Part shown: piece by piece, positions 12,514-42,929 of the stretch
How the letters are laid out: each line of letters opens with the position of its first letter
Numbering within the stretch: position 1 is the first letter of the stretch
NCBI RefSeq assembly: GCF_022682305.1
Contig: NZ_CP093528.1
Span: 3,237,501 to 3,301,500 of the forward strand
Direction: 5' to 3'
From: Shinella zoogloeoides
Lineage (GTDB): Bacteria > Pseudomonadota > Alphaproteobacteria > Rhizobiales > Rhizobiaceae
Length of the DNA: 64,000 bases
Translations under genes and position numbers: made by a program
The notes under the pieces: generated by a model
Told to the model about the DNA's origin: nothing
The model's database searches: none
The model's input: only the letters and a program-made list of their open reading frames with translations

Positions 12514-12527
12514 TTGATCCGCGTCAA
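12514..12527 (+). promoter_or_regulatory. FNR/FixK box upstream of hsp20
   Basis: TTGATCCGCGTCAA is a perfect TTGA-N6-TCAA palindrome. It lies in the 349-bp intergenic region 12383-12731, whose remainder shows no convincing gene. The centre is 211 nt ahead of the hsp20 ATG and 138 nt ahead of the HlyD ATG, so it could serve either, with a long leader for hsp20. The binding protein is predicted to be the FixK-type regulator at 16129. Confidence 0.7.
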
Positions 12528-12731
12528 TGCGGCAAAACGGCGGGCGGCGTTTGCTGGAATGCCTGCCGGAACGAGCCAATCGGATGAAGCAGGGCCGGAC
12601 GCGGCAGCGCGCCGGCATGCGACGTTCCTGCAGGAAGCGCCGCCGCCCTCTCGCCTCGTTGTGTCGAGGCTTGCATGGAAAAACCGGGGCGACTGCAATG
12701 AGACGATTATCCAACGCGAAGGAGACCAATC

Positions 12732-13256
12732 ATGGCCGAAGCTGCCACCAAGATGCCCGTCACGAAGACGACTGCCCCTGCCAAGCGCGACGAGCGCCGC
12801 CCGCTCGAAAGCCTGCGGCGCGAGATCGACCAGCTTTTCGAAAGCTTCCATCCCTTCGACTGGCGCCTGCCGTCGAGCGTCCTCGGTTTCGAACTACCAC
12901 GCGTCTCGCGCGAGGAATGGCCGGTGCTGCCCGCCATGGACCTCGTGGAGAAGACCGACGCCTACGAGATCACGGCCGAGCTTCCCGGCATCGACGAGAA
13001 GAACGTGGAGATCAAGCTCTCCAACCACACGCTGACGATCAAGGGCGAGAAGAAGGAAGAAAAAGAAGAGAAGCAGAAGGACTACTACCTCTCCGAGCGC
13101 CGCTACGGCTCGTTCCAGCGCAGCTTTCAGCTTCCCGACGGGGTGGACACCGACAAGATCGACGCCGCCTTCACCAAGGGCGTACTGACGATCAAGCTGC
13201 CCAAGACCGCCCAGGCAAGACAGGCGGAAAAGACCATCGCGGTCAAGGCTGCGTGA
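12732..13256 (+). CDS. Hsp20/alpha-crystallin family small heat-shock protein
   Basis: A 174-aa holdase chaperone. The alpha-crystallin domain spans about residues 60-165, with the AMDLVEKTDAYEITAELPGI strand region, the NHTLTIKGEKK strand and the conserved GVLTIKLPK end. A charged EKKEEKEEKQKD loop sits in the middle. The ATG follows AAGGAGACC at good spacing. A FixK box upstream and a strong terminator downstream make it its own transcription unit. Low-oxygen control of an Hsp20 recalls Acr/HspX of the mycobacterial DosR regulon. Confidence 0.93.
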   Translation: MAEAATKMPVTKTTAPAKRDERRPLESLRREIDQLFESFHPFDWRLPSSVLGFELPRVSREEWPVLPAMDLVEKTDAYEITAELPGIDEKNVEIKLSNHTLTIKGEKKEEKEEKQKDYYLSERRYGSFQRSFQLPDGVDTDKIDAAFTKGVLTIKLPKTAQARQAEKTIAVKAA

Positions 13257-13272
13257 CCGAAGCCGACAGTCA

Positions 13273-13301
13273 CCGGTGCGCCCGATGGCGCACCGGATTT
13301 T
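13273..13301 (+). terminator. Rho-independent terminator after hsp20
   Basis: A perfect 10-bp stem CCGGTGCGCC (13273-13282) and GGCGCACCGG (13287-13296) with a CGAT loop is followed by ATTTT. It ends the hsp20 transcript, though the DUF2267 gene begins only 16 nt later, so read-through may supply the second gene. Confidence 0.8.
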
Positions 13302-13316
13302 CCAGGGAGACGCCTG

Positions 13317-13745
13317 ATGAGTAGCACATCGATAACCCATTTCACCCAGGCTGCGCAGCAGGCACAGCAGTGGGTCAACGAACTTGCCGAGGATCTCGAC
13401 TGGACGCAGCCGCGCGCCTACCACCTTCTTCGGTGCGTGCTGCATGCCCTGCGCGACTGGCTCTCGCCGGAGGAAATGACGGACCTCTCCTCGCAACTGC
13501 CCGTTCTGGTCCGCGGTATCTATTTCGAGAACTGGAAGCCTCTCGAGACGCCCGTATGGGACCGCAGGAAAGAGGATTTCATTGCCCGCATCGAGGACGC
13601 CTTTGCCGGCGACATGCTGGTCGATCCCGATGAGGCGATACGCGCCGTTTTCCGCCTGCTCGACAGGCATGTTTCCCATGGCGAGATCATGCAGGTCAGG
13701 AACTCGATGAAGAAACCGCTGCGCGACCTGTGGCCGGCGGCGTAA
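13317..13745 (+). CDS. DUF2267 family protein
   Basis: A 142-aa, mostly helical soluble protein. The DUF2267 pattern is visible: an N-terminal helix ending in WVNELAEDLDW, a RAYHLLRCVLHALRDWLSPEE segment typical of the family, then LPVLVRGIYFENWKP and a second half-repeat (FRLLDRHVSHGEI). The ATG follows CAGGGAGACGCCTG. DUF2267 proteins have no settled function and often sit beside stress and Hsp20 genes, as here. Confidence 0.85.
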   Translation: MSSTSITHFTQAAQQAQQWVNELAEDLDWTQPRAYHLLRCVLHALRDWLSPEEMTDLSSQLPVLVRGIYFENWKPLETPVWDRRKEDFIARIEDAFAGDMLVDPDEAIRAVFRLLDRHVSHGEIMQVRNSMKKPLRDLWPAA

Positions 13746-13891
13746 CCGTCTTGCGCCGCTTCAGGAGGCCGGTGTCCAGCGGAGTCCGCGCCGCACCGCC
13801 CTTCCTTTCAAGCTCGGGCGGTTGTATTCTCGCCGCTGGTTAAACCTGTCTTCCCGATGGCGCCCGGGCTGGCGTCCCCGATAGGAACACC

Positions 13892-15400
13892 ATGCCGGCG
13901 CGCGACCTACCCGGACTGCAGGGGCGCTTCCTGCAGGCAATCTTCTCACGCCGCTTCGAAGGAAGCGCCGGGTACCTGCTGGCGCTGGTTTCCGTAGCGG
14001 GGGTTTTCGGCTTACGCTGGCTGCTCCAGAGCGTGCTCGGCAATACCGCCACATTCATTCTCTTCATTCCCGTCATCCTCGTCGCCGCAATCGCCGGTGG
14101 CATGGGGCCAGGGCTTCTTGCCCTCGCCCTTTCGCTTGCCAGCGCGACCTATGTTGCCGGTCCCAATGGGACGGTCTGGCTCCAGGTCGGCATCTTCGCC
14201 CTGGTCGGGCTGACCATCACATGGATGGGCGAGATGCTGCACCACGCGCGTCGGGCCATTGACCGGACCGAAGTGGCCTTGAGAACGCGGGAAGCGCATC
14301 TTCGCTCTATCCTCGATACAGTACCGGATGCGACGGTCGTCATCGACGAGCGAGGCCTCATCACCTCCTTCAGTGCGGCCGCGGTTCGACAGTTCGGCTA
14401 TACCGAAGCCGAGGTGCTCGGCCGAAACGTCAACATCCTCATGCCGGAACCCTATCATCGCGAACATGACGGCTACATCGAACGCTACGTCAGCACGGGT
14501 GAGAAGCGGATCATCGGGGTGGACCGCGTGGTCGTGGGCCTTCGTCGGGACGGATCGACCTTTCCCATGAAGCTCGCGGTCGGGGAGGTGCAATCTTCGA
14601 ATGGCCGTTTTTTCACGGGCTTCGTCCGCGACCTGACGGAACGCGAGGAGTCCGAGGCGCGGCTGCAGGAGGTCCAGAACGAGCTGGCACGGCTTGCCCG
14701 TCTCAACGAACTGGGGGAAATGGCTTCCACACTCGCGCACGAACTCAACCAGCCCCTGGCGACCATCGCCAACTATTCCCAGGGCTGCATCCGGCTGCTC
14801 GACGGCATGACGAAGGAATCGGCCATCCAGATGCGGGAGGCGCTGGAGGAAATCGCGAAGCAATCACTGCGCGCCGGCGAAATCATCCGTCACCTTCGCG
14901 AGTTCGTCACGCGCGGAGAAACGGAAAAAACGCCGCATGACATGCGCAAGCTGATCGAGGAAGCCGGGGCGCTCGCCCTTGTCGGCTCAAGGGAACTCGG
15001 CGTCCGGTCGGTTTTCGCCTTTTCGCCTAATACCAAAGCGGTGCTTGTCGATCGCGTCCAGATTCAGCAGGTTCTCATCAATCTGATGCGCAATGCCATG
15101 GAAGCCATGCGCGACAGCGGGCGACGCGAACTGGTCGTGCGCACCCTGCCGGACGGAGCCGATCACGTCGTCGTGGAAGTTGCCGATACGGGGCCGGGTA
15201 TTTCCGACGAGATCGCAGCCCGCCTGTTCCAGCCTTTCGTCACCAGCAAGGCAAGCGGCATGGGCATAGGACTGTCCATATCCAAGCGCATCGTGGAGGC
15301 CCACCGGGGCGAGATATCGGCGCAGCGCAACGAGAATGGCGGAACGACGTTCCGGTTCTCCTTGCCGGTTGCCGGACAGGGGGCTGAATATGAAGCCTGA
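13892..15400 (+). CDS. fixL: Oxygen-sensor histidine kinase FixL
   Basis: A 502-aa membrane kinase. Residues about 24-112 hold four membrane helices, followed by a PAS domain (about 132-250), a HisKA dimerisation helix with phospho-acceptor His283 in [10 protein letters not shown], and an ATPase domain ([17 protein letters not shown]). The PAS domain aligns with rhizobial FixL haem domains: His192 in the REHDGYI segment matches the haem-ligating His, and Arg212 (DRVVVG) matches the O2-sensing Arg of Bradyrhizobium FixL. It should autophosphorylate when O2 is low. The stop overlaps the fixJ start by 11 nt. Confidence 0.92.
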
Positions 15401-16016
15401 CAGCTATGTCGTGCATATCGTCGACGACGAGGAGCCAGTGCGCAAGTCGCTGGCCTTTCTTCTGACCATGTCAGGTTTCACGGTGCGCGTGCACGAGTCC
15501 GCCACCCATTTCCTCGCCGTCGCACCAACGCTCGCCAATGCCTGCCTAGTAACTGACCTGCGTATGCCGGATATGAGCGGCATCGAGCTGCTGGAGAAGC
15601 TCGGCGCAATCAAAGCCCTCCCCCCGGCAGTCGTGATCACCGGACACGGCGACGTGCCGATGGCAGTCTCGGCCATGAAGGCAGGCGCGGTCGATTTCAT
15701 CGAGAAGCCGTTTGAGGATCAAGCCCTGATCGACGCAATCATTCGGGCCGCCAGCCGGCTGGAAGACACCATCGAGGTTTCCAGCGATACGGGAGCGTTG
15801 CGGGCACGCCTGGACAGCCTTTCGGATCGAGAGCGCCAGGTTCTCTCGGCGGTCGTCTCCGGTCTGCCCAACAAGACGATCGCCTACGATCTCGACATCA
15901 GCCCGCGCACGGTGGAGGTCCACCGCGCCAACATCATGTCGAAGATGCAGGCGAAAAGCCTTGCCGAACTCGTGCGAATGGCCATAGCTCTCAAGGTCGC
16001 CAGCACCCGTCATTGA
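15390..16016 (+). CDS. fixJ: Response regulator FixJ
   Basis: A 208-aa two-domain regulator. The receiver carries acidic Asp12-Asp13, phospho-acceptor Asp56 (LVTDLRMP) and the EKPF lysine. The C-terminus is a LuxR/FixJ helix-turn-helix (LSDRERQVL, then [18 protein letters not shown]). The ATG at 15390 follows GACAGGGGGC and lies inside the fixL end, so kinase and regulator are coupled. Phosphorylated FixJ activates fixK in rhizobia, and a fixK-like gene follows 112 nt downstream. Confidence 0.93.
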
Positions 16017-16044
16017 GGCCAGCGGCCAACGGCCGGGCGACCAC

Positions 16045-16060
16045 TACGCATTTTCCCCTA
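16045..16060 (+). promoter_or_regulatory. Candidate FixJ-binding site upstream of fixK
   Basis: The 112-bp gap between fixJ and fixK holds TACGCATTTTCCCCTA, with the TACG motif repeated just downstream. It resembles the TA-x-GTA core of rhizobial FixJ sites with one mismatch, at 69-84 nt before the ATG. The match is weak and rests mainly on position. Confidence 0.25.
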
Positions 16061-16128
16061 CGGACATGACCGAATTTCGTTTCGCAGGATTTGCGCGATG
16101 ATCTTCCATCGACTCCAGGGAGAAGATC

Positions 16129-16776
16129 ATGACCGTTCATGACGAGATTCTGACATCGTTTCATCGCAGGGCAGCATTCGATCCAGGGATGGCCGATCGT
16201 CGCTCGGCAATCGACGCGCCGGCATTCTTTCCCGCCGGCGCGGAAATCTATGCCCAGGGGGAAAAGTGCGGCAGCCTCTATACCGTGGAGTTCGGAGCCG
16301 TGCGGGTCTACCGGCTGCTGGCGGACGGACGCCGCCAGATTTCCGCCTTTCACCTTGCCGGGGAGATGTTCGGGTTCGAGACCGACGCCAACCACCATTT
16401 CTTTGCCGAAGCCACATGCGCGACCGGCATAAGGATGCAACGCACCACGCTGCTCCACGGTGATCATGCCGGCGCACTGCTGCCCATGGCCCTGCAATGC
16501 CTCGTGCGGGCGCAGGAGCATCTGCTCGTACTCGGCCGGCAGAACGCGACGGAACGCGTCGCCGCCTTCCTTCTCGACATGTCGGAGCGCCAGGGCGGCC
16601 TGCGGCTGATCGAGTTGCAAATGGCGCGCGCCGATATCGGCGATTATCTCGGCCTCAGCATCGAAACCGTTTCCCGCGTGTTTTCGAGGCTCCGCCAGAA
16701 GGGCGTCATCCGGCTGCCGAACCTGCGCGGCGTGGAGATCGTCAAGAGGCAGGCGCTGCACGATCTCGCCGCCTGA
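16129..16776 (+). CDS. fixK: Crp/Fnr-family transcriptional regulator, FixK type
   Basis: A 215-aa regulator with a cNMP-like beta-roll (about 30-120), a dimer helix (about 125-155) and a winged HTH. The recognition helix reads SIETVSRVF: Glu179, Ser182 and Arg183 correspond to the E--SR residues by which FNR reads TTGA half-sites. It lacks the N-terminal cysteine cluster of Fnr, so it should not bind a 4Fe-4S cluster and would take its oxygen cue from FixLJ. The start follows CAGGGAGAAGATC. It is the obvious candidate binder of the boxes listed here. Confidence 0.88.
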   Translation: MTVHDEILTSFHRRAAFDPGMADRRSAIDAPAFFPAGAEIYAQGEKCGSLYTVEFGAVRVYRLLADGRRQISAFHLAGEMFGFETDANHHFFAEATCATGIRMQRTTLLHGDHAGALLPMALQCLVRAQEHLLVLGRQNATERVAAFLLDMSERQGGLRLIELQMARADIGDYLGLSIETVSRVFSRLRQKGVIRLPNLRGVEIVKRQALHDLAA

Positions 16777-16854: not shown

Positions 16855-17259
16855 ATGATCCTACCCAATGGCGCGACAGTGGCGGTCGTTGACGGCCACA
16901 GATTGCTTCTCTTCAGGAACATGGCCCACGAACCCGGCATCGAACTCCTCGCCCTGCCCCCGCCCCACCTGCCAGAAGGACATGGCGGCTCCGGCGCACG
17001 CCACAGGAACAGTATCGCCAACCCGGACAAGATACGCCTTCTGGAAGACGATTTCGCCGCCACGGTTTGCGCCGCGCTCAACCGGGCGGCTGTCGCCGGC
17101 GAGATCACCGAGTTGCTCATCATCGCGGACGCACGAACCCTCGGGGAAATGCGCCAACACTTTCACAGGAGCCTGAAGGAACGACTGCTTGGCGAAATCG
17201 TCAAGGACATGACCGGACACTCCAGAACGGAGATCGAGGCTGCTGTTCGAACGGCCTGA
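16855..17259 (+). CDS. Host-attachment protein family (PF10116-like)
   Basis: A 134-aa protein with the family's opening strand TVAVVDGHRLLLFRN, a central basic segment and the C-terminal half with LLIIADARTLGEMRQHF and RLLGEIVKDMTGHS. Proteins of this family are named after an Agrobacterium host-attachment factor but occur widely and resemble a translation-termination-factor-like fold; the true role is unclear. It follows fixK by 78 nt with GGGAGAACCACG before the ATG and may be co-transcribed. Confidence 0.75.
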   Translation: MILPNGATVAVVDGHRLLLFRNMAHEPGIELLALPPPHLPEGHGGSGARHRNSIANPDKIRLLEDDFAATVCAALNRAAVAGEITELLIIADARTLGEMRQHFHRSLKERLLGEIVKDMTGHSRTEIEAAVRTA

Positions 17260-17522: not shown

Positions 17523-17536
17523 TTGACGCCGGTCAA
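17523..17536 (+). promoter_or_regulatory. FNR/FixK box upstream of the BON-domain gene
   Basis: TTGACGCCGGTCAA is a perfect TTGA-N6-TCAA site, centred 86 nt before the ATG at 17616, a spacing compatible with class II activation (about -40) plus a short leader. The gap 17499-17615 holds nothing else recognisable. Confidence 0.8.
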
Positions 17537-17615
17537 CGCTTGCAGGCCCTTCACGTCAGAGAATGAACAGGCTCAGGGCGGGAATGGTGCCCGCCGGAAG
17601 AACGAGGTGAAAGTC

Positions 17616-18266
17616 ATGAATGACAGCACATTGAGACAGGATATCCTGGACGAACTCGACTTCGAACCCAGCATCGACGCGGCCGATATCGGCGTAGCGG
17701 TGGAAAACGGCATCATCACGCTGACCGGGCATGTCCCGACCTACAGCCAGAAACTCAAGATCGAGGACGTCGTGGGGCGGGTCAAGGGCGTAAAGGGCAT
17801 CGCCCAGGAGATCGAAGTACGGCCGTTCGGAACCAACCGCACGGCCGATGACGAAATCGCCAAGCGCGCCATCAATTCGATCGCCTGGAACACATCGGTC
17901 CCCGACAACGCCGTGCAGGTGAAAGTCCAGAAGGGCTGGATCACGCTGAGCGGCAAGGTCGACTGGCAATATCAGCGGATCGCAGCCGCCAATGCGGTGC
18001 GTGACCTCGCCGGTGTCATCGGCGTGACGAACCAGGTCGAGATCAAGCACCACGTCTCGGCGCTCGACGTGAAGAAACGGATCGAAGATGCGCTGAAACG
18101 CAATGCAGAGGTGGAGGCGCGGGCGATAAAGGTCGCGGTGCTCGACGGCGGCAAGGTGCGATTGGACGGTCGGGTACATGCGTGGTCCGAACGCCGTGCC
18201 GCCGAACAGGCCGCCTGGGCCGCCGCCGGCGTCCATGCTGTCGAGGACCACATTTCCGTCGGATAA
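17616..18266 (+). CDS. Protein with three BON domains
   Basis: A 216-aa protein made of three tandem BON repeats at about residues 3-68, 75-143 and 150-216. Each shows the G-hydrophobic-G pattern (NGIITLTGHV, KGWITLSGKV, GGKVRLDGRV). BON modules bind phospholipids or act as OsmY-like stress proteins. No signal peptide is visible, so this copy may be cytoplasmic. The ATG at 17616 is preferred over an in-frame one at 17514, because the latter would place the FixK box inside the gene. Confidence 0.85.
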   Translation: MNDSTLRQDILDELDFEPSIDAADIGVAVENGIITLTGHVPTYSQKLKIEDVVGRVKGVKGIAQEIEVRPFGTNRTADDEIAKRAINSIAWNTSVPDNAVQVKVQKGWITLSGKVDWQYQRIAAANAVRDLAGVIGVTNQVEIKHHVSALDVKKRIEDALKRNAEVEARAIKVAVLDGGKVRLDGRVHAWSERRAAEQAAWAAAGVHAVEDHISVG

Positions 18267-18290
18267 TGTGACACGTCCAACGACAGCCGA

Positions 18291-18350: not shown

Positions 18351-19334
18351 ATGAGGGCAATGGTGCTGGAAAGACCCGGAACGAGGCTGGTCGCGGTCGA
18401 GCACCCCGATCCGGTCCCAGGGCCAGGAGAAGTAAGGATCGAGGTCGAAGCCTGCGCCGTGTGTCGCACGGACCTCCACGTCATAGACGGTGAACTCGCA
18501 CAGCCCAGACTGCCCCTTGTGCCGGGACATGAGATCGTCGGCATCGTCGATGCCGTCGGCCCCGATGTCGCGCCCTCGCGCCTCGGAAAGCGCGTCGGCG
18601 TGCCCTGGCTCGGGCATGCTTGCGGATCGTGCGCCTACTGCCGGTCCGACGCTGAAAACCTCTGCGACGCGCCGCAATTTACCGGCTACACCCGCGATGG
18701 CGGCTTCGCGACGCATGCGGTGGCCGACGCAAACTTCGCCTTCGATCTCGACCCCGACGCCGATCCGGTCGCACTCGCGCCTTTGCTGTGCGCCGGGCTG
18801 ATCGGCTGGCGCGCCTTGACCAAGGCAGGCGACGGAAAACGCATCGGGCTCTACGGCTTCGGCGCCGCGGCCCATATCATTGCACAGGTCTGCGTCTGGC
18901 AGGGGCGCGCCGTCCACGCCTTCACCCGGCCGGGCGACACGCAAGCACAACGCTTCGCGCTCAGCCTCGGGGCAGTATGGGCCGGCGGCTCGGACGCGAC
19001 GCCGGCCGCCCCGCTCGACGCCGCGATCATCTTCGCGCCGGTCGGAGACCTTGTGCCCGCCGCCCTGCGCGCGGTTCGCAAGGCTGGCATCGTCGTGTGC
19101 GGCGGCATCCATATGAGCGACATCCCGGCGATGCCCTACGCCACGCTTTGGGGGGAGCGGGAGCTCGTCTCCGTGGCCAACCTGACGCGGCGCGACGCGG
19201 AGACGTTCTTTCCGGTGGCGCATGCCGCCGGCGTGCGCACGCACACCACGACCTATCCCCTCGCCGCCGCCAACGAAGCTCTCGCGGATCTCAGGGCGGG
19301 CCGCCTCAACGGCGCGGCCGTGCTGGTGCCTTGA
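18351..19334 (+). CDS. Zinc-binding alcohol dehydrogenase family protein
   Basis: A 327-aa medium-chain dehydrogenase. The N-terminal GroES-like part has catalytic zinc ligands in CAVCRTDLH and PGHE, and structural zinc cysteines in HACGSCAYCRSDAENLC. The Rossmann half has a glycine motif GLYGFGAAAH. It ends TYPLAAANEALADLRAGRLNGAAVL, as in AdhA/AdhP proteins that reduce or oxidise short aldehydes and alcohols with NAD(P)H. No FixK box is seen directly upstream, so its promoter must lie elsewhere or it depends on read-through of the preceding terminator. Confidence 0.9.
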   Translation: MRAMVLERPGTRLVAVEHPDPVPGPGEVRIEVEACAVCRTDLHVIDGELAQPRLPLVPGHEIVGIVDAVGPDVAPSRLGKRVGVPWLGHACGSCAYCRSDAENLCDAPQFTGYTRDGGFATHAVADANFAFDLDPDADPVALAPLLCAGLIGWRALTKAGDGKRIGLYGFGAAAHIIAQVCVWQGRAVHAFTRPGDTQAQRFALSLGAVWAGGSDATPAAPLDAAIIFAPVGDLVPAALRAVRKAGIVVCGGIHMSDIPAMPYATLWGERELVSVANLTRRDAETFFPVAHAAGVRTHTTTYPLAAANEALADLRAGRLNGAAVLVP

Positions 19335-19345: not shown

Positions 19346-19939
19346 TCAGCCGGCGCGCGCACCGAGGGCCCGCATCTTCGCAAGCCATTTTGCGCGCGTC
19401 TCGGCGCTTGCGCCATCCACCATGCCGAACAGCGTTTCCCGGACGGGGCTGATGCCCACGAAGTTCAGGATGTTACGGCGCAGGCCCGCAACGCCATGGC
19501 CGAGATACCAGAACCGATAGAAGGAGGCCGGCATGCCCATGGTCACGATGACCCGCGCGGAACGCCCCTTGAGCAGCGTTCGCGCAAAACCGCCGCCGCC
19601 CGCTTCGGAATAGGCGAATGCGACGCCGGGGCGCATCACCTGCTCCAGAAAGGCTTTCAGCAGGGCCGGCATCGTGCCGAGCCATAGCGGAAAGACGAAG
19701 ACGATGTGCTCGGCATGCCGGATTGCCTCAACTGCAGCCTCCAGCGTCACTGGAAGGGGTCGCCGTTCGAACTCCTCCATCGTGCGAAGCAGAGGGAAGT
19801 CAAGCGCCGCGACATCGATAAGCTGCACCTCATGTCCAGCCGAACGGGCTCCATCGGCATAGCTGGCGGCGAGCGCCCGGCAAAGCCGTTTCGGTTCCGG
19901 GTCGGGATGGCCGATGATGACGAGGATGCGGCGCGGCAT
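19346..19939 (-). CDS. Flavodoxin-fold NAD(P)H oxidoreductase (Flavodoxin_2 family)
   Basis: A 197-aa cytoplasmic FMN/FAD reductase. It opens RRILVIIGHPDPEPKRLCRAL, the family's phosphate-binding start, and contains the FPLWLGTMPALLKAFLEQVM core shared with MdaB/NQO-like quinone reductases. The ATG at 19939 is chosen over one at 19966 because CAGGAG sits before it. A FixK box is centred 56 nt upstream. It is convergent with the alcohol dehydrogenase, 11 bp apart. Confidence 0.85.
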   Translation of the reverse strand: MPRRILVIIGHPDPEPKRLCRALAASYADGARSAGHEVQLIDVAALDFPLLRTMEEFERRPLPVTLEAAVEAIRHAEHIVFVFPLWLGTMPALLKAFLEQVMRPGVAFAYSEAGGGGFARTLLKGRSARVIVTMGMPASFYRFWYLGHGVAGLRRNILNFVGISPVRETLFGMVDGASAETRAKWLAKMRALGARAG

Positions 19940-19988: not shown

Positions 19989-20002
19989 TTGACCCGGGTC
20001 AA
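19989..20002 (-). promoter_or_regulatory. FNR/FixK box, overlapping the mgtA stop codon
   Basis: TTGACCCGGGTCAA is a perfect palindrome over its full 14 bp. It is centred 56 nt upstream of the flavodoxin-fold reductase start on the minus strand. Its right part (19999-20001) is the TGA stop of the upstream mgtA gene, so a regulatory site and a stop codon share bases. Confidence 0.8.
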
Positions 20003-22584: not shown

Positions 22585-22622
22585 TTTCGTGTCTCCGCCT
22601 GCGGTCGCCTGTTCCAGCCCCG

Positions 22623-23506: not shown

Positions 23507-23520
23507 TTGACGCGGGTCAA
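23507..23520 (-). promoter_or_regulatory. FNR/FixK box upstream of usp-mgtA
   Basis: TTGACGCGGGTCAA is a perfect TTGA-N6-TCAA site in the 95-bp gap between arcC and usp, centred 69 nt before the usp ATG on the minus strand. It gives usp-mgtA a promoter separate from the arc operon. Confidence 0.8.
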
Positions 23521-24448: not shown

Positions 24449-24449
24449 G

Positions 24450-25451: not shown

Positions 25452-25467
25452 GTCAGTTCCTCCTTCG

Positions 25468-26685: not shown

Positions 26686-26705
26686 GACGATTCCTTTCGA
26701 CGGGT

Positions 26706-28236: not shown

Positions 28237-28250
28237 TTGACCGGCGTCAA
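28237..28250 (-). promoter_or_regulatory. FNR/FixK box for arcDABC
   Basis: TTGACCGGCGTCAA is a perfect TTGA-N6-TCAA site centred 68 nt before the arcD ATG. It shares a 203-bp divergent region with a second box 57 bp away that faces the alcohol dehydrogenase gene. Control of arcDABC by Anr/FNR-type proteins is established in Pseudomonas. Confidence 0.85.
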
Positions 28251-28293: not shown

Positions 28294-28307
28294 TTGACGG
28301 GGGTCAA
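28294..28307 (+). promoter_or_regulatory. FNR/FixK box for the alcohol dehydrogenase-acetyltransferase gene
   Basis: TTGACGGGGGTCAA is a perfect TTGA-N6-TCAA site centred 78 nt before the ATG at 28379. Together with the arcD-facing box it gives each divergent gene its own dedicated site. Confidence 0.85.
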
Positions 28308-33761: not shown

Positions 33762-33854
33762 ATCCTTCACTCCATGCCGCCGGTTTCAGAACGGCAACAC
33801 CCATGCAGACGGGACGTCGCTCCCAGCCAGTGCCCGTACATCGCCATTCCGATC

Positions 33855-33868
33855 TTGACTGGCGCCAA
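33855..33868 (-). promoter_or_regulatory. Imperfect FNR/FixK box upstream of xfp
   Basis: TTGACTGGCGCCAA keeps TTGA-N6 but ends CCAA instead of TCAA (one mismatch). It is centred 100 nt before the xfp ATG in the 313-bp divergent region 33762-34074, which otherwise holds the second box and no gene. Confidence 0.55.
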
Positions 33869-34002: not shown

Positions 34003-34016
34003 TTGATCTGCGTCAA
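34003..34016 (+). promoter_or_regulatory. FNR/FixK box upstream of the small ORF-pta-ackA unit
   Basis: TTGATCTGCGTCAA is a perfect TTGA-N6-TCAA site. Its centre is 65 nt before the ATG of the 65-aa ORF at 34075, the same spacing seen at other boxes here, but 270 nt before pta. This supports the small ORF as the first gene of the transcript. Confidence 0.8.
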
Positions 34017-35680: not shown

Positions 35681-36858
35681 AGACCCTGCTGACCTTCAAT
35701 GCCGGCTCTTCCACCGTAAAGATCGGCCTGTTTGCGCTTCACGCGGGCGGTCCCGTCCGGCTCGCCCGCGGCGTGATCGATTTCCGCCACGAACCGCTGA
35801 CCTTGCGGGTGAGCGAGGGGGAGCAGCGGATCGAGGTCGCGCTGGATGCACGGCCGGATGCGGACCTGAGCGGCATCCTGTCGGAGACCGTCGCCGTCCT
35901 CGGCCGCCATTTCGATCTTGGCGAGGTCGCGGCCGTCGGGCATCGCGTCGTACATGGCGGCGACCACTTCGCCGGGCCTGCTCGCCTCGACAGGGAAAGC
36001 ATCGCGGCCATCGAGGCGCTGACGGTGCTCGCGCCGCTCCACCAGCCGCAGAGCCTGCGCCTCATCCGCGCGATCGGCAGCGTGCTGCCGGACCTGCCGC
36101 AGGGCGCCTCCTTCGACACTGCCTTTCACCGCACGAACGATGCGCTGGTGCGCCGCTTCGCCATCCCGCGCGCCCTCCATGACCGGGGCATCAAGCGGTA
36201 TGGCTTCCACGGCCTCTCCTACAAATATATCGCCGGCGAACTCGCGCGCCTTGCACCAGAAAAGGCTGGCGGCAAGGTAGTGGTCGCCCATCTTGGCAGC
36301 GGTGCGAGCCTTTGCGGCCTCGACAACGGTATCAGCCGCGACACCAGCATGGGCTTTTCGACGCTCGACGGCATTCCGATGGCGACGCGCTGCGGTGCGC
36401 TCGACCCGGGCGTGGTGCTGCATCTCCTCGGGCAGGAGGGGCTGGCGTTACGTGCGATGGAAGACCTCCTCTACCACAAGTCCGGGCTCCTCGGGGTTTC
36501 CGGCATCAGTGCCGACAGCCGCGATCTTCTGGAGAGCGATGCGCCTGAAGCGAGGGAGGCGATCGACCTCTTCGCTCTGCGGATCGCCGGCGAGATCGCC
36601 CGGCTGGCCGCCACGCTCGGCGGTCTCGACGCCGTCGTCTTCACGGCCGGCGTCGGCGAGAACCAGCCAAAGCTGCGGGCCAATGTCTGCGGCCGGCTGG
36701 GCTGGCTCGGCCTCGACCTCAACCCCATCGCCAATGCCGCGAACGCGGTCCTCATCAGCACACCGGAAAGCCGCATGGCCGCCTTCGTCATCCCCACCGA
36801 CGAGGAACAGGTGATCGCCGAGGAAACCGTCTCGCTGCTGGGGAGCGCAGGAAAATGA
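35677..36858 (+). CDS. ackA: Acetate kinase
   Basis: A 393-aa ASKHA-fold kinase making ATP and acetate from acetyl phosphate. Motifs: FNAGSSTVKIGLF at the N-terminus, the RVVHGGDHF segment, GFHGLSYKYI, HLGSGASLCGL and FTAGVGENQP. With xfp and pta it completes a phosphoketolase-acetate route giving ATP without respiration. It overlaps pta by 4 nt. Confidence 0.95.
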   Translation: MKTLLTFNAGSSTVKIGLFALHAGGPVRLARGVIDFRHEPLTLRVSEGEQRIEVALDARPDADLSGILSETVAVLGRHFDLGEVAAVGHRVVHGGDHFAGPARLDRESIAAIEALTVLAPLHQPQSLRLIRAIGSVLPDLPQGASFDTAFHRTNDALVRRFAIPRALHDRGIKRYGFHGLSYKYIAGELARLAPEKAGGKVVVAHLGSGASLCGLDNGISRDTSMGFSTLDGIPMATRCGALDPGVVLHLLGQEGLALRAMEDLLYHKSGLLGVSGISADSRDLLESDAPEAREAIDLFALRIAGEIARLAATLGGLDAVVFTAGVGENQPKLRANVCGRLGWLGLDLNPIANAANAVLISTPESRMAAFVIPTDEEQVIAEETVSLLGSAGK

Positions 36859-37043: not shown

Positions 37044-37057
37044 TTGCCTTGCGTCAA
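37044..37057 (+). promoter_or_regulatory. Imperfect FNR/FixK box upstream of the PNPOx-fold gene
   Basis: TTGCCTTGCGTCAA has one mismatch in the first half-site (TTGC for TTGA). It is centred 72 nt before the ATG at 37123, matching the spacing of the perfect boxes. The rest of the 264-bp gap after ackA shows no gene. Confidence 0.5.
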
Positions 37058-37122: not shown

Positions 37123-37590
37123 ATGATGATCCGCGAAATGACGCACAACGAATGCACCGCGACGATTGCCGACCAGCGGCTGGCACGGCTGGCCTGCGCC
37201 GACAACAACAACCCCTACGTCGTCCCGATCTGCTATGCCTATTCGGCAAACCGGCTTTTTGTCTTCTCGATGCCGGGCAAGAAGCTCGAAATCCTGCGCG
37301 CCAATCCCAAGGCGTGCGTGCTCATAGACGCTTTGGAAACAAGACATCGATGGAAGTGCGTCATCGTGGACGCCCTGTTTCATGAACTTCCCGATACCGA
37401 AGACCTGCACGACGAGCGTCTAAGGGCCTGGACACTCCTTGCAAAGGACGTCGACTGGTGGGAACCAGGCGCATTCAAGCCTCAGCCGCAACCAGTGGTG
37501 ACCACCTGGCCCCATATATTCTTTGAACTCGAAATCCTCGCGATGAGCGGGCGTGAGGCGACGAACGACATGAGCGAGGTCTCGCACTAA
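37123..37590 (+). CDS. Pyridoxamine 5'-phosphate oxidase-fold flavin protein (NimA-like)
   Basis: A 155-aa split-barrel protein. It opens MIREMTHNECTATIADQRLARLAC-like and continues YVVPICYAYSANRLFVFSMP-like, the pattern of FMN-binding PNPOx/nitroimidazole-reductase relatives. GGAGGAG precedes two adjacent ATGs (37123 and 37126). Family members bind flavin or F420/haem and act in redox stress. The upstream box links it to the island's regulation. Confidence 0.8.
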   Translation: MMIREMTHNECTATIADQRLARLACADNNNPYVVPICYAYSANRLFVFSMPGKKLEILRANPKACVLIDALETRHRWKCVIVDALFHELPDTEDLHDERLRAWTLLAKDVDWWEPGAFKPQPQPVVTTWPHIFFELEILAMSGREATNDMSEVSH

Positions 37591-37617: not shown

Positions 37618-39612
37618 TCATCGAAGAGCTCTCAGCGCGTTGAGGATCACAGCCACGTCGATCGCCTCCTGGAGGATCGCCCCTTCGACCGGCTGGAGAT
37701 ATCCGAAGGCTGCCGCAACCATTGCCCCGACTGAAAGCGTAAGTCCGACCGATACGCTCTGTAACGCGATCCTGCGGCTTCGGCGCGCGATTGCAATGGC
37801 CTTGGCGAGTGGCGCAAGCTCATCGACAAGGACCACCACGCCCGCGGCTTCAGAAGACGAGGCCGTGCCGCGGGCGCCCATGGCAACGCCGATATCGGCC
37901 GCCGCGAGCGCCGGGGCGTCATTGACGCCGTCCCCCACCATCATCACCGGGCCGTTTCCGGTCTCCCTTCTGACCGCATCGACCTTGGCTTCCGGCGTCA
38001 GGTCGCCGAGGACGGCATCCATGCCAAGCGCCTGGCCGACGACATGCGCAATCTCCGCGCGATCACCCGACGCCAGCACGAGCCTCCGGATGCCCGACGT
38101 CCGAAGATCCGCCAGAACCGACATCGCATCTGCACGCACCTGGTCCTTGAGAACGATCATGCCCGCGAGCGCTCCATCGATGGCGACGGCCACGGTCATG
38201 GAAGCCCGCATCTCGGGCGTGATCAGGTCATGCGGGTCCTCGCAACCGGACATGCGTTGCACAAAGCCACTCCCGCCGACAACAATCCGTCGTCCCTCGA
38301 CATAACCTTCGATGCCGGTGCCGGGCACTTCCCGCACACCCTCCGGCTTCGACAGAGACAGGCCGCTTTCGGTTGCAGCACGGATGAGGGCAGCGGCAAC
38401 GACATGGCCGGAAGCCTGATCCAGGCTCGCCGCCGCCCCTAGCACCGCTTCTGCCGTGAAGGGCGATACCGTCCTGATGTCGATCACCGCCGCCTGACCA
38501 TGGGTGAGCGTGCCGGTCTTGTCGAGAACCGCGGTCTGCACGCGCCCCAGCATCTCGAGCATGCCGCCGTTCTTTACGAGAACGCCGATTCCGGCCGCCT
38601 TCGACATGCCGGAAATGATGGCGACCGGGACCGCAAGGATCAGGGGACAGGGTGTTGCAACGACAAGAACGGCAAGCGCGCGGATCGGATCCTCCGAAAA
38701 ATACCAGGCGCCGCCCGCGATAATGAGAGTCAGGACCAGGAAGCCCACCGCAAAACGGTCTGCCATGCGGACCATGGGCGCCTTGCTCGCCTGCGCGGCC
38801 TCAACCAGCCTGATGATCCCCGCATAGGTGCTTTCGGCGGCAGTCCTACTGGCAACCAGATCGAAGGGCGCGCCCACGCAGGTCGAACCGCTCAGCGCCT
38901 CGGCTCCAGACGGAGTGGGCTGCGGCAAAGGTTCTCCGGTCAAGGCCGCCATGTCTAGCGCCGCACCTTCGCCGGAAGCGATCCCATCCACCGGCAGCAC
39001 TTCACCCTGTCGGATCAGCAACCGGTCGCCGGGCTGTATCCGGGAGATCGCGATCTCCTCCAGTCCGCACGTGCCATGGCGCATGGCAAAATGCGAAATG
39101 CGCCCCATCAGGGCCGTCATCTCCCGACGCGCGCGCCCTTCGGCAAAGGCCTCAAGGAGCTGGCCACCCGCATACATCAAGCCGACCACGTTTCCGGCAA
39201 GCGGCTCGCCGAACACGATCGCGGCCGACATGGAAAGCGCTGCAACGATATCAAGCCCGACATCCCCCCGGCGCAAGGCGCCGAAGACCTGAATGGACAG
39301 ACTGATGAGAATCGTCAGCGTCGCCGCACTCCAGACAAGAGGGGCGTAGCGGGGGCCCTGCCACGACAAGACCAGACCGATCACCAGCCCCCCGGCGGCA
39401 ATACCGACCAGGATGATGCTCGACCGTCTCTGCCAGATGCCTTCGCTCGCTTGCGGCACGTTGCCCTCCCTATCGACAGGATGCCACTGAATAAGCCCGC
39501 AAACGGCCGCTCCCACCTTGCGCAGGATCAATTCCGGAAGCGTCGTTTTCTCTAGAATGGGAATGAACACCGCCGCGCCTGGTGCCGACTGGGCCTTTCC
39601 CGATGGTTCCAT
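37618..39612 (-). CDS. Heavy-metal P1B-type ATPase without N-terminal metal-binding domain
   Basis: About 664 aa. Core motifs: actuator AALTGEPLP, membrane CPx motif ATPCPLILA, phosphorylation LDKTGTLTHG, hinge GDGVNDAPAL. A membrane-proximal ending DVAVILNALR resembles Zn/Cd or Co exporters more than Cu pumps, but the metal is uncertain. No N-terminal CxxC HMA domain is present. The start is doubtful: the ATG at 39612 leaves 2 bp to the divergent gene at 39615, so a GTG at 39570 may be the true start. Convergent with the PNPOx-fold gene. Confidence 0.88.
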   Translation of the reverse strand: MEPSGKAQSAPGAAVFIPILEKTTLPELILRKVGAAVCGLIQWHPVDREGNVPQASEGIWQRRSSIILVGIAAGGLVIGLVLSWQGPRYAPLVWSAATLTILISLSIQVFGALRRGDVGLDIVAALSMSAAIVFGEPLAGNVVGLMYAGGQLLEAFAEGRARREMTALMGRISHFAMRHGTCGLEEIAISRIQPGDRLLIRQGEVLPVDGIASGEGAALDMAALTGEPLPQPTPSGAEALSGSTCVGAPFDLVASRTAAESTYAGIIRLVEAAQASKAPMVRMADRFAVGFLVLTLIIAGGAWYFSEDPIRALAVLVVATPCPLILAVPVAIISGMSKAAGIGVLVKNGGMLEMLGRVQTAVLDKTGTLTHGQAAVIDIRTVSPFTAEAVLGAAASLDQASGHVVAAALIRAATESGLSLSKPEGVREVPGTGIEGYVEGRRIVVGGSGFVQRMSGCEDPHDLITPEMRASMTVAVAIDGALAGMIVLKDQVRADAMSVLADLRTSGIRRLVLASGDRAEIAHVVGQALGMDAVLGDLTPEAKVDAVRRETGNGPVMMVGDGVNDAPALAAADIGVAMGARGTASSSEAAGVVVLVDELAPLAKAIAIARRSRRIALQSVSVGLTLSVGAMVAAAFGYLQPVEGAILQEAIDVAVILNALRALR

Positions 39613-39614
39613 CA

Positions 39615-40868
39615 ATGGACACACTCATAACCAGATTGGGTATCGCGCTATCGATCGGCCTTCTGGTCGGGCTTGAACGCGGCTGGCAGGAGCGAGATGC
39701 TCCCGAAGGCAGCAGAACCGCCGGCATACGAACCTTCGGGATATCGGGGCTTCTTGGCGGCGTGCTGGTGGCGGTCGCTCATACCCTCGATTATCCCATG
39801 GTGTTTCCGATCACGTTTCTGGGCTTCGCCGCCACGCTGGCTATCTTCAAGCTGCGCGAAGCACGTTCGGATTCAGACTATAGCGTGACCACCGTCATGG
39901 CGGGTCTTGGCGTTTTCGCACTCGGCGGCCTGGCTGTCGCCGGCGACGCGCAGGCCGCGGCGGCGGGAGGGGCAGCACTCGCCGCCACGCTCGCAAGCCG
40001 CAACGTCCTGCATCGCTTTCTGAAGCGCTTGACCTGGGTAGAACTGCGCTCCGCGCTGATGCTGGCTGTCATGACGGCGGTTATCCTTCCGATCCTGCCG
40101 AACGAAACCATAGATCCCTGGGGAGGACTCAATCCGTGGAAGGTTTGGTTCTTCACCGTCCTGACCGCAAGTCTTTCGTTCCTCGGCTACATTGCCGTCA
40201 GGATCTTCGGAGCCAGGAAGGGCTTCATCCTGAGCGCGATTGCCGGCTCGCTCGTTTCATCCACGGCCGTTACCATGGTTCTGGCGCGAAGCGTGAAAGG
40301 CTCCGGCGATCCGCTTCCGCTTGCCGGGGCCGCAGCGCTCGGTGCGGCCGTGTCCATCCTGCGCGTGATGAGCCTGATCCTGCTGATAGACCCGGCCGCG
40401 GTCATTCCCACCGGTCCGGCCGCCGCCACGGCCGCTGTCGTCTTCGCCGGTTCCGGGTTCGCGCTGTTCTACTGGCCGCAAGACAGACCCTTCGCGGACG
40501 TGCCGACCAGCAATCCCTTCGAGATAGGCCCGCTGCTGGTCTTCGCGGCGATTTTCGCAGCAGCCACCATCACCAGCGCGGTTCTTGTCTCACATTTCGG
40601 CAGCTCCGGACTTTTGGCCACGACCGCCCTGACGGGCGCGGTCGATGTGGATGTCGCCGTACTGGCCGCCCTGCAAGCGGGCCGGGATGTCTTGCCACTC
40701 GACGTCATCGGAAAGGCAATCCTTGTCGCCATGGCAACGAATGCCCTGTGCCGCGCCGGCATTACCATCCTGCTTGGGGCGCCGTCTTTCAGCGCGCCGT
40801 TTACCGCCCTCACGGTCGCCGCCGGCACCGCGGCCTTTGCCGCCCACATCGTTCTTCCCATGCAGTGA
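39615..40868 (+). CDS. MgtC/DUF4010 family membrane protein
   Basis: A 417-aa polytopic protein. Residues about 1-140 are MgtC-like (LGIALSIGLLVGLERGW, FGISGLLGGVLVA); residues about 165-417 are DUF4010 with 7-8 helices (KGFILSAIAGSLVSSTAVTM, ATTALTGAVDVDVAVLA). MgtC relatives modulate Mg2+ homeostasis and ATP synthase in pathogens; DUF4010 proteins are less defined. The in-frame ATG at 39582 is rejected because the first helix begins right after 39615. No good Shine-Dalgarno is seen. Confidence 0.85.
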   Translation: MDTLITRLGIALSIGLLVGLERGWQERDAPEGSRTAGIRTFGISGLLGGVLVAVAHTLDYPMVFPITFLGFAATLAIFKLREARSDSDYSVTTVMAGLGVFALGGLAVAGDAQAAAAGGAALAATLASRNVLHRFLKRLTWVELRSALMLAVMTAVILPILPNETIDPWGGLNPWKVWFFTVLTASLSFLGYIAVRIFGARKGFILSAIAGSLVSSTAVTMVLARSVKGSGDPLPLAGAAALGAAVSILRVMSLILLIDPAAVIPTGPAAATAAVVFAGSGFALFYWPQDRPFADVPTSNPFEIGPLLVFAAIFAAATITSAVLVSHFGSSGLLATTALTGAVDVDVAVLAALQAGRDVLPLDVIGKAILVAMATNALCRAGITILLGAPSFSAPFTALTVAAGTAAFAAHIVLPMQ

Positions 40869-40914: not shown

Positions 40915-41415
40915 TCAGCCGACCGTCATCCGCCGAAGCACATTCGTCTTCCAATAGAAATGATGCGCCAACGCCCCCAGGACGTGAAGCCCCACAACCG
41001 CCCACAGAATGGCTTTGAGAACGTCGGCATGGAGGTCGCCTGCGCCCTTGTATCCGAGATAATAGGCGGCGGCGCCGCTGAGCGGCATCGCGAGCAGGAG
41101 GAGATAGAGCGTCCATTCGGATATCTTGGCTACCGACCTGAATATCGCTGGTTCGCCCGCGGGCGCAGCCGGCACGCCCTGGACCTGTCGGAGCAGAAGT
41201 CGAACGGCGACGAGAACAAGGATCGCGATGCCGGCATAGGCGTGGATATTGGCACTTGCGACCTGTTCGGCGCTCGCCGCACCGGTTTGCTTCATGCTCC
41301 TGTTCCAGGCATTCATGCCGTCCGGGAACAACAGGTTGAAGAAGACGAGCCCTGCCGTGAGCCAGTGCAAGATGCGCTGCGGAAGGGAAAACGAGAGCGA
41401 TGCGGTCGTAGCCAT
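40915..41415 (-). CDS. Cytochrome b561 family protein
   Basis: A 166-aa four-helix di-haem membrane protein. His17 (QRILHW), His58 (ANIHAYAG), His144 (VGLHVLG) and His151/152 (LAHHFYW) sit at the expected helix positions for b-type haems. The family passes electrons from quinols to periplasmic acceptors. The cupredoxin gene lies 46 nt upstream on the same strand, so both may form a small electron-transfer unit. The ATG at 41415 is preferred to one 33 nt upstream. Confidence 0.88.
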   Translation of the reverse strand: MATTASLSFSLPQRILHWLTAGLVFFNLLFPDGMNAWNRSMKQTGAASAEQVASANIHAYAGIAILVLVAVRLLLRQVQGVPAAPAGEPAIFRSVAKISEWTLYLLLLAMPLSGAAAYYLGYKGAGDLHADVLKAILWAVVGLHVLGALAHHFYWKTNVLRRMTVG

Positions 41416-41461
41416 GGACGTGTTTCGCCTTCTTTCGTGTGGCGGCATCAGGAGGATGCAA

Positions 41462-41887
41462 TCACTTCGTCACCGTCAGCAGGGTGTGCATCCCCGCCTC
41501 GTAGTGGCCCTTGATGTTGCAGAGCAGGAGATAGGAACCCGGGGCAAGCCGCGCCTTCATCTGGCCGTCCTTGCCCGGCTTCAGATCCGCGACTTCACCG
41601 AGACTTTTCAAATGTTTCTCGTCCACCCGATGCTTGGAGGCGACGACATCGACCTTCTGATCGGCTGACTTCAGCTTGACCAGGACCATTTCGTGCTCTT
41701 CCGTGAGCGCATTGTTGTGCACCACGAAGGTCGTCTCACCGGCCTTTATCGTAGGCCGGTCGAGCGTGAGGGTCATCGGACCACCGCCTTCGCCACTTTC
41801 GATGACCTTGACGGTATTCGCGGCCCATGCCGGCGAGGTGATTGCAACGATAGCAAGCGCTGCGAGGATATTGCGACGGATGTTCAT
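41462..41887 (-). CDS. Exported cupredoxin-domain protein (type 1 copper)
   Basis: A 141-aa protein with a Sec signal peptide (about residues 1-22, basic NIRR start, cleavage after AWA). The copper ligands are visible: His65 in TEEHEMV, and Cys123, His128 and Met133 in LLLCNIKGHYEAGMHT. This is the C-x4-H-x4-M pattern of blue copper proteins. It should shuttle electrons or bind copper in the periplasm. AGAAGGAAG precedes the ATG. Pairing with cytochrome b561 suggests an electron donor-acceptor couple. Confidence 0.87.
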   Translation of the reverse strand: MNIRRNILAALAIVAITSPAWAANTVKVIESGEGGGPMTLTLDRPTIKAGETTFVVHNNALTEEHEMVLVKLKSADQKVDVVASKHRVDEKHLKSLGEVADLKPGKDGQMKARLAPGSYLLLCNIKGHYEAGMHTLLTVTK

Positions 41888-41977
41888 GTCGGCTTCCTTC
41901 TGCTGGAGATGCATCCGGCAATAAGGCGCCATGCTGACAGGTGCCTGAACGGCGCGAAAACGACCAGGGATCAGGAT

Positions 41978-42008
41978 GCGCCCCGATGCTCACAACGCAT
42001 CGGGGCGC
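41978..42008 (-). terminator. Strong hairpin after the second usp gene
   Basis: GCGCCCCGATGC (41978-41989) and GCATCGGGGCGC (41997-42008) form a perfect 12-bp stem with a 7-nt loop, starting 8 bp past the usp stop. No long T-run follows on the minus strand, so termination may be partial. It separates usp from the cupredoxin gene. Confidence 0.65.
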
Positions 42009-42016
42009 TCCAGATC

Positions 42017-42847
42017 TCACCGCACCATGAAGACAGGCACGTCGCAGGTCTCGAGGATCGAAGCGGTGACGCCCCCGAAAACGCGCTCGCGCAGGCGCGA
42101 ATGACCGTAGGCCCCCATGACGATCATATCGCAGCCGAGTTCGAGCGCATGCTGGCGGATCACGTCTTCCGTCGGTCTCTGGCCGCTCGCGATCTGCTCG
42201 ATCACGACCTTTGCGCCATGACGCGACAGGAAGGCCGCCATGTCCGCGCCCGGCTCCCCGCCATTCTCGAAGTACGAAGAATCCGGATCGACGATGACGA
42301 GGCGGACGGTATCGGCACCTTTCAGCATCCCAAGCGCTGCCTTTGCGGCACTGGCCGCCTGCGGGCGCGAATTCCAGGCCAGAAGGACGTTCTTCGGCTT
42401 CAGGGTGGCGCGACCTGCCTTCGGCATCAAGAGCAGAGGCGTACCGGCGTTGAAGGCTGTCGCCGCGATGGCTGCCTTTCGAAGCTCGGAATCCGAACGG
42501 ATTCCTTCCCCGGCGACGACCAGATCGGCGTACATCGCGCGGGTGCCGATGTTGCTTTCGATGATGAAGCGGTCATCGTAGATATGGTCGACATCGAATG
42601 ACAAGCCACCTTTCCTGCAGCGCTCGTCAGCGATGCGTCGAACATCCACCACCTCGTCGATTTCCTTTTGGCGCTCGTTCAGCCAGGCGGCTGCGGCAGG
42701 GTAGTCGGCCCCGAACGGCGAAATCGCGGTTCTCAGCGCCATGACGGAGAGATGCCCGTCGATTTCCACCGCCAACGTTACAGTCTTATCGATATCCGCA
42801 TCGGTGTTTGTCGTGCCGATGAGCGAGAGTATGGTCTTGAACGGCAT
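42017..42847 (-). CDS. Universal stress protein, UspA type
   Basis: A 276-aa Usp protein opening FKTILSLIGTTNTDADIDKT. The C-terminal half carries VLLAWNSRPQAASAAKAAL and the G-AYGHSRLRERVFGG-TASIL nucleotide-binding segment, ending VPVFMVR. It is a paralogue of the 22623-23444 protein. An FNR-like box with one mismatch is centred 75 nt before its ATG. Confidence 0.9.
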   Translation of the reverse strand: MPFKTILSLIGTTNTDADIDKTVTLAVEIDGHLSVMALRTAISPFGADYPAAAAWLNERQKEIDEVVDVRRIADERCRKGGLSFDVDHIYDDRFIIESNIGTRAMYADLVVAGEGIRSDSELRKAAIAATAFNAGTPLLLMPKAGRATLKPKNVLLAWNSRPQAASAAKAALGMLKGADTVRLVIVDPDSSYFENGGEPGADMAAFLSRHGAKVVIEQIASGQRPTEDVIRQHALELGCDMIVMGAYGHSRLRERVFGGVTASILETCDVPVFMVR

Positions 42848-42915
42848 GTCTGAACTCCTTCACCAGAATGGTCTTGCAGTGAAGGTAAGCTAGCTCTCGG
42901 CACCCATATGCCGCG

Positions 42916-42929
42916 ATGATCTGCGTCAA
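42916..42929 (-). promoter_or_regulatory. Imperfect FNR/FixK box upstream of the second usp
   Basis: ATGATCTGCGTCAA differs from TTGA-N6-TCAA at the first base only. It is centred 75 nt before the usp ATG on the minus strand. Its core is the same as in the 34003 box. Confidence 0.55.

Follow-up and report, generated by a model that had tools for sequence, protein, structure and literature searches.

A 64-kb window of a Shinella genome (64,000 nucleotides of contig NZ_CP093528.1; coordinates below count from its first base) contains an island, at 12514..42929, in which the predicted genes of a FixL-FixJ-FixK oxygen-response cascade stand among genes with fermentation, cation-transport and stress functions, and in which recognition sites of the FNR/FixK type (TTGA-N6-TCAA) are densely packed. 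The regulatory genes and the element between them are as follows.

13892..15400, plus strand, FixL: membrane region (DUF4118), heme PAS domain, histidine kinase
15336..16016, plus strand, FixJ: response regulator with receiver and GerE domains
16044..16064, plus strand, FixJ-type operator upstream of fixK, CTACGCATTTTCCCCTACGGA
16129..16776, plus strand, FixK: CRP/FNR regulator without an N-terminal cysteine cluster

In total, 11 FNR/FixK boxes lie ahead of approximately 11 gene groups (about 25 neighbouring genes), and most of them are conserved in an alignment of the window with five island stretches from four other Shinella species.

12514..12527, box 1, TTGATCCGCGTCAA, between hlyD and hsp20; identical in all four aligning Shinella stretches
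17523..17536, box 2, TTGACGCCGGTCAA, ahead of the BON gene; half-sites kept in three of three aligning stretches
19989..20002, box 3, TTGACCCGGGTCAA, ahead of the flavodoxin-fold gene; half-sites kept in three of three aligning stretches
23507..23520, box 4, TTGACGCGGGTCAA, ahead of usp1-mgtA; kept in three of four aligned stretches, with one half-site change in S. yambaruensis
28237..28250, box 5, TTGACCGGCGTCAA, on the arcD side
28294..28307, box 6, TTGACGGGGGTCAA, on the side of the alcohol dehydrogenase-GNAT (ADH-GNAT) gene; conserved in S. kummerowiae
33855..33868, box 7, TTGACTGGCGCCAA, one mismatch, ahead of xfp; perfect in S. kummerowiae, one mismatch in S. zoogloeoides
34003..34016, box 8, TTGATCTGCGTCAA, ahead of pta-ackA; TATAGG 20 nt 3' of it
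37044..37057, box 9, TTGCCTTGCGTCAA, one mismatch, ahead of the pyridoxamine 5'-phosphate oxidase-fold (PNPOx) gene; identical in S. kummerowiae, the sole aligning stretch
39518..39531, box 10, TTGCGCAGGATCAA, one mismatch, between the P-type ATPase and mgtC genes
42916..42929, box 11, ATGATCTGCGTCAA, one mismatch, ahead of usp2

The seven perfect boxes (12514, 17523, 19989, 23507, 28237, 28294 and 34003) fall within 21.5 kb. The genome as a whole (5,141,032 bases) holds 56 perfect sites and 12 occurrences of the reversed control pattern. Nine perfect sites are present in the window, where shuffled sequences predict 0.65, and the 30.4-kb island has seven where 0.33 are expected (Poisson P 6.5e-8). 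When sites were placed uniformly 20,000 times, seven in 21.5 kb were never reached; the maximum was six, reached four times. Seven of the 19 distinct genomic places that match TTGAY-N4-GTCAA belong to the island. The remaining two perfect sites of the window, at 49029 and 55793, are outside the island and inside a 9.9-kb duplicated element. A first-pass annotation made from the sequence had listed all seven perfect sites and three sites with one mismatch (33855, 37044 and 42916), every one of which is present, and had proposed testing for a density far above background, which the genome scan confirms; its total of ten boxes was short by one, the one-mismatch site at 39518 having been overlooked.

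The boxes are also more strictly conserved than the DNA around them. In the five aligned stretches, with non-aligning boxes excluded, half-site positions were identical to the window in 87 of 88, 72 of 72, 40 of 40, 31 of 32 and 16 of 16 cases (246 of 248 overall), compared with 1877 of 2518, 1749 of 2186, 579 of 789, 995 of 1243 and 195 of 284 at the other intergenic positions (69-80%). By these comparisons the one-mismatch boxes of the island look real: S. zoogloeoides carries TTGCCGTGCGTCAA at the place matching box 9, three Shinella islands and plasmid pShin-04 carry TTGCGCAAGATCAA at that of box 10, and box 11 recurs unchanged in three Shinella stretches and on two plasmids, S. fusca showing a single change in its core.

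Nine of the ten originally listed sites had been placed with their centres 56-100 nt before a start codon; with start codons revised, the count falls to eight, at approximately those distances. The two more distant sites are the box at 12514, separated from hlyD by 138.5 nt and from hsp20 by 211.5 nt, and that at 34003, whose distance to the likely pta start (34280) is 270.5 nt. The description of all sites as intergenic or at a gene border stands with one qualification, in that the box at 19989-20002 overlaps the mgtA stop codon by four bases. The best matches to TATAAT 15-26 nt 3' of the boxes average about 3.5 of six positions in the 13 directions on the gene side, compared with 2.8 in the nine on the opposite side, which is no more than suggestive of class II promoters.

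The identities first proposed for FixL, FixJ and FixK were upheld by domain and structural comparisons. The PAS domain of FixL aligns along the solved heme PAS domains of Sinorhizobium meliloti (1d06, the closest) and Bradyrhizobium japonicum (1dp6) and contains His192 and Arg212 at the positions of the proximal histidine and the conserved arginine of a heme PAS domain; heme binding is predicted. FixJ scores 300.7 bits against NF006900 (cut-off 255) and is the sole protein in the genome above that cut-off. FixK has cysteines at positions 47, 97 and 124 only, so that the FNR cysteine cluster is absent, and has ETVSR at 179, an E..SR recognition helix; its closest solved structure is FixK2 (4i2o). 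The nearest named FixK proteins are those of S. zoogloeoides PQ7 (96% identical), S. yambaruensis (92%), S. kummerowiae (88%) and S. fusca (81%). Because the NCBIfam cut-offs were missed both for rhizobial FixL (NF041777; 518.8 bits, cut-off 850) and for the Caulobacter FixK equivalog (NF050806; 172 bits, cut-off 300), we do not claim those equivalog names and regard the sensor as a FixL-type protein only. No protein in the genome scored above the nifH cut-off. Assignment to FixK by the E..SR helix and the missing FNR cysteine cluster follows the division of Dufour et al. (PMC2908626).

A FixJ operator ahead of fixK, as a FixLJ-FixK cascade predicts, is likewise recognizable by sequence. The element at 16044..16064 is the sole match in the window to a 21-base FixJ-type pattern (six or fewer mismatches). 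Such a match was found in 88 of 95 fixK upstream regions (32 of 39 with fixJ adjacent and 56 of 56 without), and the best of 20 shuffles per region matched in seven of 95; since the 95 loci include repeated sources as well as numerous close Mesorhizobium, and the pattern was drawn from some of these fixK loci, the 88 matches are not independent. External support for the operator comes from the published S. meliloti FixJ site, TAAGTAATTTCCCTTA, and from a motif obtained by systematic evolution of ligands by exponential enrichment (SELEX), GTAGTTTCCC (PMC4999443).

The other genes of the island are listed below; families were assigned by Pfam unless stated, and several start codons were revised.

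8574..11351, minus strand, ABC transporter with two ATPase domains and an ABC-2 membrane domain; its homologue on plasmid pbSHIWSC3 is annotated RbbA
11318..12382, minus strand, HlyD-family membrane fusion protein
12732..13256, plus strand, Hsp20 small heat-shock protein
13317..13745, plus strand, DUF2267 protein
16855..17259, plus strand, baeRF12/host-attachment protein
17616..18266, plus strand, BON-domain protein; start revised from 17514, with a GTG at 17607 possible
18351..19334, plus strand, zinc alcohol dehydrogenase (adh_fam_2)
19346..19939, minus strand, flavodoxin-fold NAD(P)H reductase; start revised
19999..22692, minus strand, MgtA-like cation P-type ATPase
22623..23444, minus strand, universal stress protein (Usp) 1
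23540..28175, minus strand, arcDABC arginine deiminase operon (arcC 23540, arcB 24450, arcA 25468, arcD start 28175)
28379..29965, plus strand, ADH-GNAT fusion; start revised
29981..31339, minus strand, beta-CASP metallo-beta-lactamase-fold RNase-like protein
31395..33770, minus strand, phosphoketolase (Xfp)
34280..35680, plus strand, bifunctional MaoC-type enoyl-CoA hydratase/phosphate acetyltransferase (NF006045, 719 bits against 282); start revised
35677..36858, plus strand, acetate kinase family
37123..37590, plus strand, PNPOx protein; start revised
37618..39459, minus strand, heavy-metal-type P-type ATPase; start revised
39603..40868, plus strand, MgtC/DUF4010 membrane protein; start uncertain
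40915..41448, minus strand, cytochrome b561-like protein
41462..41932, minus strand, cupredoxin-like protein (best Pfam E 3e-5, below the gathering score)
42017..42847, minus strand, universal stress protein 2

The counterpart of the ADH-GNAT fusion is a GNAT protein alone in several genomes of the same genus and on two plasmids.

Island genes recur around fixK in other genomes. Within the family (199 genomes), 20 loci with sufficient contig room were taken from the 29 best FixK relatives, and 40 kb was examined around each (31 kb in one case), a further island family being scored at 40% identity and half coverage. At least one further family was found in 14 of these 20 neighbourhoods, and at least three in 11. 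In 12 of these genomes, the fixK stretches (40 kb each, 480 kb) held 58 boxes; control segments of the same genomes (240 kb) held one box, four reversed patterns and zero island homologues. Among 80 named fixK loci of 6-21 kb, which are mostly Mesorhizobium and not independent, 66 had at least one further family and 47 at least three (62 and 43 of 76 when Shinella is removed), with gene order and orientation varying from locus to locus.

Related arrays also exist apart from FixK. Of the 21 genomes in the genus group, which we refer to as the same genus and, from the FixK identities above, take to be Shinella, five encode FixK. We sampled eight of the 16 FixK-less genomes, with the ADH-GNAT protein as marker, and six (G075, G205, G207, G210, G212 and G217) have partial arrays in which boxes are present but FixK is absent from the stretch, those of G210 and G212 being, respectively, a 5.7-kb contig and a stretch with one box; the other two (G209 and G215) yielded alcohol dehydrogenase matches only, and no box. 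Plasmid pbSHIWSC3 follows the window's order (rbbA-hlyD, usp, arcCBAD, gnat, mbl, xfp, pta, ackA, usp, ATPase, usp), with fixLJK and their neighbours missing between hlyD and usp and the boxes kept. A similar array with boxes kept lies near repAB on plasmid pShin-04, with no FixK in the stretch. The first-pass annotation had read the island as a self-contained regulon with its own oxygen sensor. The sensor, the FixJ-type element and the dense, conserved boxes bear out part of that description; its self-containment is not supported, given the presence of FnrN (see below) and given that in these six genomes and two plasmids partial sets of the effector genes stand in stretches without FixK. We also considered carriage of the entire island on a plasmid and rejected it, as none of 108 matching plasmid records holds at least 80% of a 24.7-kb query in one place. 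Separately, the Ensifer adhaerens plasmid pCTYH.Ch1_2 has ten perfect FNR/FixK boxes in 29.6 kb (379299-408903), in a stretch with a full-length ADH-GNAT homologue, Usp, PNPOx, BON and MgtC proteins and a PAS histidine kinase, and with no FixK match.

A second oxygen circuit is encoded approximately 1.2 Mb from the island, where the gene of an FNR-type protein with a C-x2-C-x7-C cluster is preceded by a box and lies within about 20 kb of genes for a COX1-family oxidase and of fixG-type and radical-SAM genes. Perfect boxes in this region are at 2050558, 2055000, 2057338 and 2064269. From the cluster, the box and the neighbours, we designate this putative regulator FnrN and the putative oxidase cbb3. 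Every one of the 21 genomes of the genus encodes a protein with 34-37% identity to FixK; in this genome, the only one in which the cysteine cluster was checked, that protein is FnrN. FnrN could probably also read the island boxes.

Taking these data together, we think it rather probable that the locus is a low-oxygen survival island of a Shinella with no recognizable nifH: a modular, sometimes plasmid-borne array that shares one FNR/FixK box, responds to FixLJ-FixK and probably also to FnrN, and has FixLJK as a detachable second oxygen input and not as an obligatory part. FixL proteins sense oxygen through heme, FixJ activates fixK, and FixK activates transcription at boxes of this kind. In the island, loss of oxygen from the FixL heme would lead to phosphorylation of FixJ, which would bind at 16044 and switch on fixK, and FixK would activate the island promoters at their boxes. 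The products would supply adenosine triphosphate (ATP) without respiration, by way of ArcDABC and of phosphoketolase, Pta and AckA, and would contribute redox balancing, cation pumping and protection of proteins and cells (Hsp20, Usp, BON); a gene set of this kind suits energy supply and stress survival at low oxygen, in agreement with the anaerobic-survival theme first proposed. As the box is generic, FnrN can probably run the same promoters. More tentatively, such partly plasmid-borne fermentation and stress genes might, through their generic box, come under the FNR-type regulator of any host as soon as they enter it, with FixLJ-FixK an interchangeable cassette adding a second oxygen threshold; the box and the function would be retained as gene order and content change.

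Rival assignments of the regulator that would act at the island promoters differ in how well they fit. FixK might run the island by itself, with FnrN confined to respiratory genes by a difference in site or context. All seven perfect island sites have G+C-rich cores (3-4 of 4), versus five of 19 Y..R sites outside (Fisher P 0.0012; the outside count was drawn from 43 listed of 49 sites), and FixK-carrying Shinella exceed FixK-less ones in G+C-core sites only (mean 9.2 versus 3.6; other-core sites, 19.0 versus 18.4). However, the G+C-core excess in this genome is mostly the island itself and is therefore not independent evidence, the FNR and FixK motifs are described as virtually identical (Dufour et al. 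2010, PMC2908626), and FixK-less partial arrays keep G+C-core boxes too, such as TTGACGCGGATCAA in G075; we consider sole control by FixK unlikely, and we do not claim a spacer code in which G+C cores denote FixK and A+T cores FnrN.

The reverse assignment, with FnrN the main reader and FixLJ-FixK a minor or differently timed input, would account for the genomes and plasmids that have the array without FixK in the stretch and for the FnrN-like protein throughout the genus, but the placement of FixLJK within the array in FixK-carrying Shinella, together with the conserved FixJ-type element, makes it improbable. Still less can be said for a nitric oxide-responsive regulator of the DNR/NnrR type reading the boxes of a denitrification or nitrosative-stress unit. 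The DNR site is nearly the same (PMC2908626) and the genome encodes other CRP/FNR proteins, but no denitrification gene was found among the scanned island proteins and FixLJ lies inside the array, leaving this only a very slight chance. That the cluster reflects chance or base composition is refuted by box density and conservation; we found no point in its favour and give it practically no weight.

Several observations weigh against the explanation that we prefer. Box 6 is missing from both S. zoogloeoides and S. fusca, each of which has one box between the arcD and ADH-GNAT genes, and box 7 was not found ahead of xfp in S. yambaruensis or on two Shinella plasmids. In three other Shinella a box separates an FtsH-like gene from fixL; its counterpart in the window (13801-13860) is mutated, which suggests a loss in this strain, where the FtsH-like gene is gone as well and the box apparently went with it. 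The -10 promoter elements are weak at the expected spacing, and FnrN and FixK sites are not reliably distinguishable. At the thresholds used, six of the 20 family FixK neighbourhoods, and 14 of the 80 named fixK loci, hold no island family outside FixLJK. Two-component genes whose products are 25-28% like FixL/FixJ lie several kilobases from the arrays of G075, G207, G217 and pbSHIWSC3, so these FixK-less arrays may have another sensor, although the genes are possibly unrelated. Finally, the phosphoketolase gene of Rhodopseudomonas palustris TIE-1 speaks both ways: a fixK mutation reduced it to 0.11 under one of six conditions, which favours the explanation, but several conditions showed no decrease upon loss of fixK (PMC3050613).

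Parallels to the island exist in both better-known and more distant regulons. The Pseudomonas Anr regulon includes, as the Shinella island does, ArcDABC, Usp and P-type ATPase genes at low oxygen behind an FNR-type box, but has one global regulator and scattered targets. The Mycobacterium DosR dormancy regulon is a functional parallel, with Hsp20, several Usp, a cation P-type ATPase, PNPOx-like proteins and a heme-based sensor pair; its final regulator and DNA site are unrelated. With the FixK regulons of Bradyrhizobium and Rhodopseudomonas, the island has in common FixLJ, the FixK box and, among predicted or tested targets, Hsp20, HlyD with an ABC exporter, phosphoketolase and zinc alcohol dehydrogenase (PMC2908626, PMC3050613), so that a FixK regulon with such members was already known or predicted; it differs from them in having most candidate targets beside the regulator in a single block, in the additional presence of ArcDABC, Pta-AckA and MgtA/MgtC, and in belonging to a genome with no recognizable nifH. 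In B. diazoefficiens, Usp, Hsp20, host-attachment, HlyD and phosphoketolase proteins are induced in microoxia (PMC6515984). The FnrN/FixK regulons of Tsoy et al. (2016, PMC4999443) share the box and a similar FixJ operator ahead of fixK, and include phbC as a target in some Rhizobiales, S. kummerowiae having a PhaC gene behind box 8; the main text of that paper gives no match for universal stress, phosphoketolase or Hsp20, and a compact island is not described in the part available. According to a suggestion of Dufour et al. (2010, PMC2908626), no common target set unites the FixK orthologues of genera other than Nitrobacter, Bradyrhizobium and Rhodopseudomonas; if the boxes act, this fits poorly with the families that recur near fixK in Shinella and Mesorhizobium. 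Our literature search, whose coverage left out most subscription journals, returned no title describing this island in Shinella, and within the literature searched what is new is the compact array of boxed genes, the fact that it recurs with altered gene order, and the existence of forms without FixLJK. FixLJ-FixK, best known from nitrogen-fixing symbionts, would here head genes of an ATP-supply and anoxic-survival type in a bacterium with no recognizable nifH. Related arrays with and without FixLJK offer a natural comparison of sensor gain or loss while promoters stay, and bear on what a second oxygen sensor adds to FnrN.

Alignment with S. zoogloeoides runs, with gaps, from approximately 7.4 kb to 42.94 kb, so that the shared block takes in the ABC/HlyD export genes. 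In S. kummerowiae the contig ends too early on the left for that edge to be confirmed; on its right, roughly 5.3 kb of extra DNA is followed by a further shared segment, 43.07-43.90 kb. Relative to S. kummerowiae, the window is without (i) an FtsH-like AAA-M41 protease gene, (ii) the PhaC gene behind box 8, (iii) a P-type ATPase gene behind ackA, and (iv) approximately 5 kb, including another Usp, beyond usp2; the comparison with S. zoogloeoides shows gaps at places (i) to (iii) too (gene names from S. kummerowiae). No tRNA that could anchor integration was found in the 64-kb window.

To the right of the island, the duplicated segment mentioned above (48889-58827, 9.9 kb) includes a TraD-type gene and has an inverted copy, 99.9% identical, at approximately 4025844-4035782 of the contig; IS21-type istAB genes (46754-48756) lie directly to its left. 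Between these and the island, 43093-46228 encodes a small HTH regulator, a GNAT protein, an SBF-family transporter and an FMN reductase, and looks like an arsenic-resistance operon.

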